Shown here: piece by piece, positions 19,651 to 56,466 of the stretch
Layout: every line of letters begins with the position of its first letter
How positions within the stretch are numbered: position 1 is the first letter of the stretch
Assembly (NCBI RefSeq): GCF_001017435.1
Contig: NZ_CP011371.1
Location: 310,001 to 374,000, forward strand
Source of the DNA: Caldimonas brevitalea
GTDB lineage: Bacteria > Pseudomonadota > Gammaproteobacteria > Burkholderiales > Burkholderiaceae_C
DNA: 64,000 nucleotides
Direction of reading: 5' to 3'
The notes under the pieces: generated by a model
What the model saw: the letters and a program-made list of their open reading frames with translations, nothing else
Told to the model about the DNA's origin: nothing
The model's database searches: none
Program-made: the position numbers and the translations under genes

Positions 19651-19850
19651 GCGCGGGCCGCGCGAGCACCCGCCCGGCCGCCCGAAGGGGGCTCACACGC
19701 AGTGCGGAGCACGGAGGTACCCATGACTCCCGCCCGGCCGCCCGAAGGGGGCTCACACGCAGTGCGCAGCACGGAGGTACCCATGGACTCCCGCCCGGCC
19801 GCCCGAAGGAGGCTCGCACCGCAGTGCGCAGCACAAAGGTAATCCAATGA
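19647..19850 (+). CDS. Repeat-encoded leader ORF coupling two genes
   Basis: A 67-codon frame starts at a GTG overlapping the preceding stop (GTGA) and ends in a TGA overlapping the next gene's ATG (ATGA). It consists almost entirely of three copies of a ~60-bp repeat. Because copy spacings are 60 and 61 bp, the first two copies are read in one frame (RPAARRGLTRSA) and the last in another (EARTAVRSTKVIQ). That last peptide recurs at two other loci. It may serve only to carry ribosomes to the next start. Whether the peptide itself matters is unknown. Confidence 0.4.
   Translation: MSAGRASTRPAARRGLTRSAEHGGTHDSRPAARRGLTRSAQHGGTHGLPPGRPKEARTAVRSTKVIQ
19671..19850 (+). repeat. Dispersed start-codon repeat, three tandem copies
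   Basis: Units begin at 19671, 19731 and about 19791. Each has CGCCCGGCCGCCCGAAGG, then GGCTC, AGTGCGCAGCACGGAGG and a start triplet (CCATG or CAATG). The GGAGGT in copies 1 and 2 is a perfect Shine-Dalgarno sequence followed six or so bases later by ATG; copy 3 has the weaker AAAGGT. The same element occurs inverted at 34867-34932 and 56338-56466, each time ending at the start codon of a gene. Confidence 0.85.
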
Positions 19851-34870: not shown

Positions 34871-34932
34871 TGAGAAACCTCCGTGCTGCGCACTGCGGTA
34901 TGAGCCCCTTCGGGCGGCCGTGCGGGGCTCAT
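34867..34932 (-). repeat. Dispersed start-codon repeat with 21-codon leader ORF
   Basis: This is one inverted copy of the element described at 19671-19850. On the minus strand it reads ATGAGCCCCGCACGG..., encodes MSPARPPEGAHTAVRSTEV plus SQ, includes GGAGGT at 34882-34877, and stops in a TGA overlapping the GTG at 34870. A degenerate second start of the unit continues into the coding region (CGGCCCGAAGGGG near 34842-34856), so the N-terminus of the flavoprotein may be repeat-derived. Confidence 0.8.
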
Positions 34933-54905: not shown

Positions 54906-55604
54906 TCAATGGTGCGCGGCGGTGGCCTGTGGACGGGTGCGCCGCAGCGCCTTGAGACGCTCGCGCAACTCGCGCTCGGCGGCGTCCGGGCGCGGGCCGA
55001 CCTGGCGGCGCTGCTCGTTGGCACGGCGCCGGCGCAGCTCCTCCACTTGTTGCATTTGCAAGCGGATGAAGTTCGCGACGTCTTCCACACGGTCGAGGCC
55101 GCCCAGGCTGCAGGTGCGCGGCAGCTTGACGACCTTGCCGTCGTCGAGCGTCAGGCGCAGGGAGCAGACGCTCAGAGGGCCGAGCACCGGCTTCTCGTGC
55201 ACGTCGACACTGGCCAGCCGCGACACCGGCACGCGCCGCGCCGACTGGCGCCAGCCGCGCCGCCAGCTGACGAACTTGACGCTGGCGGCGGCACGTTCCC
55301 AGCGCCAGAGGTCCCAGCCGAGCGCGGCCAGCCAGGCCGGCACCGCGAGCAGCGCGGTGCGGATGTCGAACAGCATCGAGGCCCACAGTGCGCCGCCGGC
55401 GGTGCCCAGGGCCAGCCACAGCACGATGTTGTCGCGCTCGCCGGGGGTCCAGGCGCTGCGCTCGTAATAGACCGAATCGACGTGATCGCCCGACAGCGGT
55501 GCCGCCGACAGCTGGACCGCCCGGATGCCGCGGACCGTGAGCTGTTCGAGCAGGGCCGCGCCCGCCAGGCAGGCGGGCAACGCCAGCACCCACCCGAGGC
55601 TCAT
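54906..55604 (-). CDS. Membrane protein of unknown function next to nucleotidyltransferase
   Basis: The 232-residue protein has an N-terminal hydrophobic segment ([20 protein letters not shown]), a central pair of helices (IVLWLALGTAGGALWASMLFDIRTALLAVPAWLAALGWDLW), then a PH-like or beta region (VPVSRLASVDVHEKPVLGPLSVCSLRLTLDDGKVVKLPRTCSL) and a charged helical tail. The pattern resembles small bacterial PH-domain or DUF2244-type proteins but I cannot assign a family. The ATG overlaps the preceding stop (ATGA), so it is co-translated with the nucleotidyltransferase. Confidence 0.65.
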   Translation of the reverse strand: MSLGWVLALPACLAGAALLEQLTVRGIRAVQLSAAPLSGDHVDSVYYERSAWTPGERDNIVLWLALGTAGGALWASMLFDIRTALLAVPAWLAALGWDLWRWERAAASVKFVSWRRGWRQSARRVPVSRLASVDVHEKPVLGPLSVCSLRLTLDDGKVVKLPRTCSLGGLDRVEDVANFIRLQMQQVEELRRRRANEQRRQVGPRPDAAERELRERLKALRRTRPQATAAHH

Positions 55605-56341
55605 GACGGCTGCCCGGCGCCGGGGCGGGCGTCGGGCTCCGATGCGTTGAGGGCCGCGAGCTGGGCCGGCGTGCCGACGTTCTCCCAGCGCCCGGCATAG
55701 CGGGTCACGCCGATGCGGCGCGAGCGCATCGCGTCGTACAGCAGCGGGCCGAGCGGCGCCTTGGTGCCGGCCGGCACGTGGCGGACCAGGTCGGCATGCA
55801 ACAGCGCCAGGTTGCTGTAGGTCCAGCGCTGGCCGTCGGGCCCCACGCCGTCGGCCAGACCCATGCCGTCGGCGTCGATGCCGAAGTCGCCCTTGGGATG
55901 GAAGCTCGGGTTGGGCACCAGCCACAGCTGCCCGAGCCGGTCGCTGGCGGCGAAGCCGCGTGCGAGGTCGGCGTCGAAGCGGAAGTCGGGGGCGTGGATG
56001 TCGCCCGACACGACCCAGAAGCGCTCGCCCAGCCAGGGCAGCGCCTTGGCGATGCCACCGGCCGTCTCGAGGGCGCCGCCGTGGTCGCGGCCCTCCATCG
56101 AGTAGTGCAGCCGCAGGCCCCAGCGCGAGCCGTCGCCCAGCGCCGCCGGAATCTGCTCTTCCAGCCAGGCGGTGTTGATCACGACCTCGCGCACGCCGTC
56201 GCGGGCCAGGGCTTCGAGATGCCACACGATCAATGGCTTGCCGTGCACCGGGAGCAGAGGCTTGGGGGTCTGGTCGGTGAGCGGGCGCATGCGTTCGCCG
56301 CGTCCCGCCGCCAGCACGATGGCCTTCAGGTTGCCGCTCAC
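55601..56341 (-). CDS. MurU-like nucleotidyltransferase
   Basis: The 246-residue enzyme of the NTP-transferase family has KAIVLAAGRGERMRPLTDQTPKPLLPVHGKPLIVWHLEAL at the N-terminus, VNTAWLEEQI and WVVSGDIHAPDF. It is closest to MurU, which activates N-acetylmuramate-1-phosphate to UDP-MurNAc in cell-wall recycling. The usual partner kinase AmgK is not adjacent; an unknown membrane protein follows instead. The GTG start is preceded by GGAGGT that belongs to the dispersed repeat, and the repeat ORF's TGA overlaps the GTG. Confidence 0.85.
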   Translation of the reverse strand: MSGNLKAIVLAAGRGERMRPLTDQTPKPLLPVHGKPLIVWHLEALARDGVREVVINTAWLEEQIPAALGDGSRWGLRLHYSMEGRDHGGALETAGGIAKALPWLGERFWVVSGDIHAPDFRFDADLARGFAASDRLGQLWLVPNPSFHPKGDFGIDADGMGLADGVGPDGQRWTYSNLALLHADLVRHVPAGTKAPLGPLLYDAMRSRRIGVTRYAGRWENVGTPAQLAALNASEPDARPGAGQPS

Positions 56342-56466
56342 TGGGTCACCTCCGTGCTGCGCACTGTGGTGCGAGCCCCTTCGGGCGGCCGGGCGGGGGC
56401 CGATTGGACAACCTCCGTGCTGCGCACTGCGGTGCGAGCCCCTACGGACGGCCGGGCGGGGCTCAT
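56338..56466 (-). repeat. Dispersed start-codon repeat, two copies with 42-codon leader ORF
   Basis: Two units (about 56402-56466 and 56338-56401) form one open frame starting at the ATG at 56466. It encodes SPARPSVGARTAVRSTEV and then APARPPEGARTTVRSTEV with short joins, and it stops in the TGA at 56340-56338. That stop overlaps the GTG of the nucleotidyltransferase by the four bases GTGA. Each unit contains GGAGGT. The arrangement is the same as at 34867-34932 and 19671-19850. Confidence 0.85.

Follow-up and report, generated by a model that had tools for sequence, protein, structure and literature searches.

A hairpin-forming repeat at coupled start codons of Burkholderiales, best read as a MIRU-like mobile element

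We analyzed a 64,000-nucleotide stretch (the window, bases 310001-374000) of the 6.48 Mb single-contig genome of Caldimonas brevitalea. On its minus strand, a tandem array of two short repeat units lies directly ahead of a 246-aa ORF which matches the NCBIfam model for MurU (N-acetylmuramate alpha-1-phosphate uridylyltransferase) narrowly over the cut-off (254.5 bits vs 250) and PF00483 in a Pfam search. The features of this locus are as follows.

56405..56466, minus strand: unit 1, 62 nt, located by pattern search and translation
56466-56464, minus strand: ATG start of unit 1
About 56464-56458 and 56442-56436, minus strand: arms of stem I of unit 1, followed by a hairpin
56416-56411, minus strand: Shine-Dalgarno (SD) sequence GGAGGT of unit 1, followed by a 6-nt spacer
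56342..56404, minus strand: unit 2, 63 nt, with SD GGAGGT at 56353-56348 and spacer GACCCA
56338..56466, minus strand: 42-codon open frame formed by the two units, TGA at 56340-56338
55601..56341, minus strand: murU, GTG start at 56341-56339 (NCBIfam NF045761, Pfam PF00483)

Translation of the minus strand from 56466 to 56338 yields MSPARPSVGARTAVRSTEVVQSAPARPPEGARTTVRSTEVTQ and a stop codon. The array TGA and the murU GTG overlap by 4 nt, with GGAGGT positioned 6 nt ahead. The original prediction of a 42-codon frame of two units whose TGA overlaps the GTG start is thus seen in the sequence and its translation, and the Glu-Val codons (GAGGTT and GAGGTG) do overlap the GGAGGT motif as proposed. 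Compared with unit 1, unit 2 carries ATCGGC in place of ATGAGC and one extra C; the internal stop is thereby lost while the frame is kept, so that the array still ends in a coupled stop and start. Its total length of 125 nt equals 2 mod 3. The murU locus belongs to a minority where no upstream gene overlaps the array: the transketolase gene tkt is oriented divergently, and the sole upstream frame that terminates at the left TGA is a doubtful one of 57 codons.

The complete unit is 62 nt long (65 nt in other genera) and reads ATGAGC(N)CCGCCCGGCCGCCCGAAGG(N)GCTC, followed by GCACCGCA-GTGC-GNA-GCAC, GGAGGT, N6 and (A/G)TGA. The left ATGA usually doubles as the stop of the upstream gene, the right ATGA or GTGA is the start of the downstream gene, and a mini-cistron of 21 or 22 codons with a 4-nt overlap to each neighbor extends between the two ends. 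Two further copies are found in the window.

19662..19850, plus strand: three-unit array, cores at 19687-19718, 19747-19778 and 19809-19840; the left end of the first unit is uncertain, and ATGACA at 19847 starts a 171-aa ORF
34871..34932, minus strand: single 62-nt unit, core at 34877-34908, followed by a GTGATC start

The ORF behind the single unit begins with VIAARRPEGARAAL, apparently another unit in decay that is now read in frame. Genome-wide, the core pattern with up to 3 mismatches matched 79 times, compared with one match for a reversed-pattern control. For comparative analysis, 138 clusters were collected from 51 stretches around matches in this genome and from 81 named loci with an exact pattern match in GTDB genomes (Variovorax, Aquabacterium, Ramlibacter, Albitalea, Methylibium, Hydrogenophaga, Rhodoferax, Rhizobacter and others). 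Conservation is inflated at about unit positions 13-44, by which the named loci were picked; the unit ends, the spacer, the start codon and stem positions 7 and 27 are independent of this choice. A left end was not required for inclusion and some weak or spurious matches were kept (e.g. L036, L068, L106, L112 and L132). Several loci of this genome (L044, L058, L061, L069, L077 and L080) carry half units, mostly the hairpin and SD half before a start codon, as though the SD part outlasted the rest of a decaying unit.

Stem I covaries. Among 27 units its pair 7-27 is C-G in 10, G-C in 10, A-U in 2 and unpaired in 5. These 27 units were hand-picked for diversity within a greedy set of 60 from 96 distinct canonical units, and in their MAFFT alignment 13 cells were changed on both sides of a pair, compared with 6.0 after shuffling (0 of 500 shuffles as high), while two of five measures did not exceed the shuffles (double-change pairs 129/500, pair types 156/500). 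A second alignment of 111 distinct sequences gave 66 such cells vs 18.2 (0/500), with at most 10 for slid versions of the structure; this alignment was fitted to the model structure, which biases the count in favor of that structure. The last hairpin and an alternative GCAC/GTGC pairing compete for one strand and are about equally conserved (96.3 and 94.4% of cells, respectively). The loop of the last hairpin is GNA in 85 of the 96 canonical units with all four bases occurring at N. GNA loops with a C-G closing pair are unusually stable in DNA. At the peptide level, codon 3 (mostly P, A or T) varies jointly with its stem partner at the synonymous site of codon 9. A 47-nt short form at about 1710-1765 of locus L137 (plus strand) has stem I directly followed by GCACGGAGGT, its length again being 2 mod 3 (by eye); a deletion between two GCAC repeats may have produced it.

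The position of the units relative to genes is narrowly defined. In 116 of 138 clusters RTGA follows GGAGGT at exactly 6 nt (ATGA 101, GTGA 15), and in this genome an RTGA-type start lies 3-9 nt past GGAGGT in 44 of 52. Where a start codon stands at this distance, it is followed by A in 116 of 121 cases, while bases 5 and 6 vary with GC being the commonest (66). Both a readable left end and a start were available for 105 clusters; in 28 of the 138 the units were half, decayed or shortened, leaving no full left end to read, and 5 lacked a nearby start codon. We counted upstream frames that were closed by the left TGA, spanned 100 codons or more and had a GC3 of 0.65 or higher: 80 of the 105 clusters had one, compared with 7 and 5 for the other two frames, and a downstream ORF by the same thresholds is present in 89. 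The downstream frame is shorter than 100 codons in 16, two of which are cut by the end of the stretch. Reading the chain from the left start, we found an xTGA 4-nt overlap in 90 clusters, TGATG in 6, in-frame fusion in 6 and other arrangements in 3. Open frames are frequent by chance in short GC-rich DNA, so openness alone proves little. Of 19 arrays with atypical lengths, 14 were coupled, 4 fused and one neither. As background, a rough count of ORFs away from units gave a 4-nt overlap at 18 of 483 gene ends, or at 18 of the 184 with a co-directional neighbor; overlapping gene pairs of any overlap length are reported at close to 15% in most groups (PMC6728339). The bias towards start codons, proposed earlier as a check, is strong. 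Insertion at gene starts as originally described does hold, although the site is narrower, namely RTGA with a left TGA that mostly ends a coding-like upstream frame.

Orthologous gene starts were compared for murU, murG and prmC and then for seven further genes in the relatives G001, G002 and G004. At 10 of 10 starts the unit was absent from at least one relative, which answers the question of whether orthologous loci always carry it and, together with the start-codon bias, supports the suggestion of a mobile or amplifying element. Base-exact empty sites with a single ATGA were found between ftsW and murG, at the junction after lysS and at the pdxA start: the relatives run from the upstream sequence straight into one ATGA, and the present genome has ATGA-unit(s)-ATGA. 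RTGA thus occurs at both ends of a filled site and once in an empty one. Its first base can differ between the ends, and orthologous starts vary between ATG, GTG and TTG. After lysS the unit is reduced to 48 nt and joins the gene in frame, without coupling. In case of the eamA-like gene (L075), the relatives have another upstream gene; the start is empty, yet the junction is a different one. The murU, murG, ftsW, prmC, prfA, cobS, lysS, pdxA and transketolase genes scored over NCBIfam cut-offs and tcdA under its cut-off; the gene after lysS encodes a Pyridox_oxase_2 (PF12766) protein whose identity as pdxH is not confirmed.

The prmC site is filled in both this genome and G002, and decayed units were recognized by eye at murU in G004 (19 of 25 core bases) and before pdxA in G002. 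Since some positions share the unit with relatives, not every insertion is recent, and old and younger insertions are probably both present. By eye, no remnants were seen in the relatives' stretches at murG, cobS, the lysS junction, L053 and L043. Among eight same-genus relatives only G002 matched the core pattern with up to 2 mismatches (52 matches, compared with 68 here). At the lysS junction, G002 and Aquabacterium sp. A7-Y share the same sequence (L269 and L085, respectively), which suggests that this strain falls in the GTDB genus of the host.

A second repeat type stands before a murG-like start at about 6380-6470 of L086 and about 1395-1495 of L207 (both plus strand), in two other genomes; it holds CCCCCTTGGGGGGCAGCGAGGACACGC or near variants and terminates in AGTGCCGAGCGTGGGGGC, and the L207 copy opens with stem I of the 62-nt unit. 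In several relatives (L195, L197, L198, L202 and L208) the stretch directly 5' of murG resembles other GC-rich repeat insertions. The murG upstream junction may be a hot spot for repeats.

Units from other genera fall into subfamilies. From 47 matches in 20 other genomes, 44 units were measured after removal of one cut-off and two weak matches (three of the 44 are short because the match edge fell beside RTGA): 23 were 65 nt long, 8 were 62 nt, 5 were 63 nt, 3 each were 60 and 61 nt, and one each 64 and 66 nt, so that 31 of 44 lengths equal 2 mod 3. Spacings between neighboring units in the 138 clusters were 62 nt in 32 of 64, 63 nt in 20, 60 nt in 4 and other values in the rest. In the 65-nt form, both stem arms and the loop are longer by one base each. 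Its DNA remains similar, yet translation of the peptide middle shifts to a different frame (SPRPAVPKGA vs SPARPPEGA), with the frame restored at the end. This 3-nt length difference combined with the frame change suggests that selection keeps the structure and the coupled frame and not the peptide, which is itself probably unimportant. In 5 of the 8 units of 60 or 63 nt, the reading frame continues without a stop into a downstream frame of 176 codons or more; such units may explain why the original prediction mentions the peptide at annotated N-termini in related genomes. In L308-L311 and L315, a subfamily of 60/63-nt units, distinguished by its middle hairpin, is fused in frame to the downstream ORF and extends its N-terminus.

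A covariance model of the unit matched 131 of 200 host-family genomes (E <= 0.001) and 95 of 141 genera, with a best E of 1e-6 or lower in 103 of the 131; counts per genome refer to the matches listed (best ~26 scored). In an order-wide draw of 200 genomes, 10 matched at 1e-6, 7 of them outside the host family. Weak tandem matches with 63-nt spacing were seen in family f30 of the order (G396:C101:2720-2848), along with single matches in two more f30 genomes; a distant relative or a transfer would both be possible sources. Among 72,556 plasmid records one matched, from Variovorax sp. SRS16, with an annotated CDS 4 nt past the matched stretch. A search of phage records for the unit gave no match. 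Units of one array differed less (0.067) than units of different arrays (0.166) (0 of 1000 permutations), which fits growth of arrays in place by local duplication.

Taken as a whole, these observations likely reflect a non-autonomous, hairpin-forming interspersed repeat that was inserted at RTGA starts with coupling preserved. An alternative history would start from an ancient element passed on vertically, with copies disappearing one site at a time by exact deletion between their flanking RTGA repeats instead of new insertions. Deletions between short direct repeats can be precise, and the shared prmC site, the decayed copies at murU and before pdxA, and two weak covariance-model matches in G001 (best E 2.7e-5) would all suit such a scenario. 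It is nevertheless unlikely given the remnant-free junctions of the relatives and the restriction of core matches to G002 among the eight. Could the unit instead be a cis-regulatory leader, i.e. a regulator-binding hairpin or a leader-peptide attenuator recruited at particular genes? Covarying hairpins right before a strong SD and a conserved short ORF are what one would look for in a leader. However, the downstream functions are unlike one another (murU, murG, prmC, pdxA, cobS, an ABC ATPase, an EamA transporter and others), the relatives manage without the unit at the same gene starts, and a search of 5 loci against Rfam returned no match at gathering score, with only 3 chance-level matches at murU (E 1.3 to 2.4); we regard a leader as very improbable. 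Least probable is a mobile microprotein gene with the peptide MSPARPPEGARTAVRSTEVxQ as its selected product. The reading frame is indeed kept, and five protein-database matches of 40-42 aa exist, none of them named, but the 65-nt subfamily reads the first half in another frame from similar DNA and codon 3 changes in step with its synonymous stem partner in codon 9.

Candidate movers were searched by Pfam family (Y1_Tnp PF01797, reverse transcriptase PF00078, IS110 PF01548). REP elements are linked with a Y1 transposase, and the unit resembles them in being short, hairpin-forming, interspersed and tandem; Y1_Tnp matches occur in 146 of 200 host-family genomes. A REP element moved by a RAYT (Y1 HUH) transposase is still highly doubtful, since PF01797 has 0 matches in the present genome, which is one of 20 without it among 49 genomes with at least 10 scored element matches, and the association between Y1 and the element is negative (Fisher p 0.016; element counts among the matches listed, best ~26). 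REPs as described in PMC3733652 are likewise short hairpin repeats of high copy number, yet of 20-40 bp and tagged by GTAG or CGTC. In the 62-nt consensus, whose ends are RTGAGC and NNNCCA, no such tag on a 20-40 bp palindrome was seen by eye. The ends are also not inverted copies of each other in the 27-unit alignment (by eye), i.e. MITE-type terminal inverted repeats were not found. The other two families were searched in 21 genomes, comprising G002 and 20 element-rich genomes without Y1. Reverse transcriptase was rejected as the mover because PF00078 had no match in 10 of them, the present genome included, and IS110 transposase because PF01548 had none in 7. Two modest PF01548 matches do occur in the present genome (best 35.2 bits vs a cut-off of 29).

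Our best reading is a MIRU-like, coupling-preserving mobile repeat of Burkholderiales. For the mycobacterial MIRUs, Supply et al. 1997 reportedly name DTGA target sites. MIRUs are described as short, apparently mobile repeats that insert at start codons and whose internal ORF is coupled to the gene at -4 nt, probably with minimal impact on expression (PMC12548453). Two of these traits recur here, the 4-nt overlap of the internal ORF with the next gene start in 90 of 105 clusters and start-codon insertion with filled and empty sites at 10 of 10 gene starts. The likeness concerns described behavior; the Burkholderiales unit differs in host, covarying hairpins and 62/65-nt subfamilies. The earlier remark that no published description was known stands in part: in a search of open-licence literature we recognized no description of this unit family (ARPPEGART occurred in 0 papers), but comparable behavior is on record for MIRUs. 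The nearest named betaproteobacterial repeat we found in print, compared by description alone, is the Beta-proteobacterial repeat element (BRE), which is likewise GC-rich, interspersed, often tandem and variable in copy number among strains, and is known from several Comamonadaceae hosts (PMC3110155). Some BRE copies are reported to extend a few bases into the end of an ORF, an arrangement compatible with a coupled overlap. By its description BRE differs in being 75-91 bp long in Bordetella and usually intergenic, and the section on it in PMC3110155 gives no coupling, RTGA site or function. No Bordetella, Polaromonas or Delftia title was among the 81 exact-pattern loci, which is weak evidence. 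Rickettsia palindromic elements can also be read as protein within host genes, but they are about 150 bp long and lie inside genes (PMC10969869), in contrast to a unit at gene starts that is fused in 6 of 105 clusters. Bicistronic design cassettes similarly use a short translated leader to feed ribosomes to the next gene (PMC12548453, PMC5995908); these are engineered and not mobile.

We propose that the element targets RTGA start codons, above all 4-nt stop/start overlaps within operons, and would leave one RTGA at each end. With the unit in place, the upstream gene would continue to stop at the left TGA. Ribosomes would restart on the left ATG, read the 21- to 22-codon mini-cistron through the hairpins, stop at the TGA over the right start codon and restart there with help of the element-borne GGAGGT. 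Intergenic distances of ~20 nt nearly abolished coupling in six gene pairs from H. volcanii and E. coli (PMC10666635), so an untranslated insert of 62 nt should uncouple a gene pair. As the unit forms an open cistron, overlaps its neighbors by 4 nt on either side and brings its own SD, ribosomes could be passed on, and downstream expression would presumably be maintained. Insertion might hence be nearly silent or might even strengthen initiation, and arrays would then lengthen through local duplication. More tentatively, and with less than even confidence, coupling-preserving mini-cistron repeats may represent a general class that arose independently at least twice (MIRU and Burkholderiales), with a mover that recognizes RTGA and hairpins without Y1 or reverse transcriptase and is host-encoded or acts on single-stranded DNA.

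In conclusion, our analysis suggests that repeats can use the translational coupling at ATGA overlaps as a landing site, here on a large scale and in a second group of bacteria. In the host family, some of the annotated N-termini and small ORFs may be repeat DNA and should be treated with caution. The unit represents a natural, portable coupled start cassette, and pairs of filled and empty sites make both the coupling and the mechanism of transposition directly testable.
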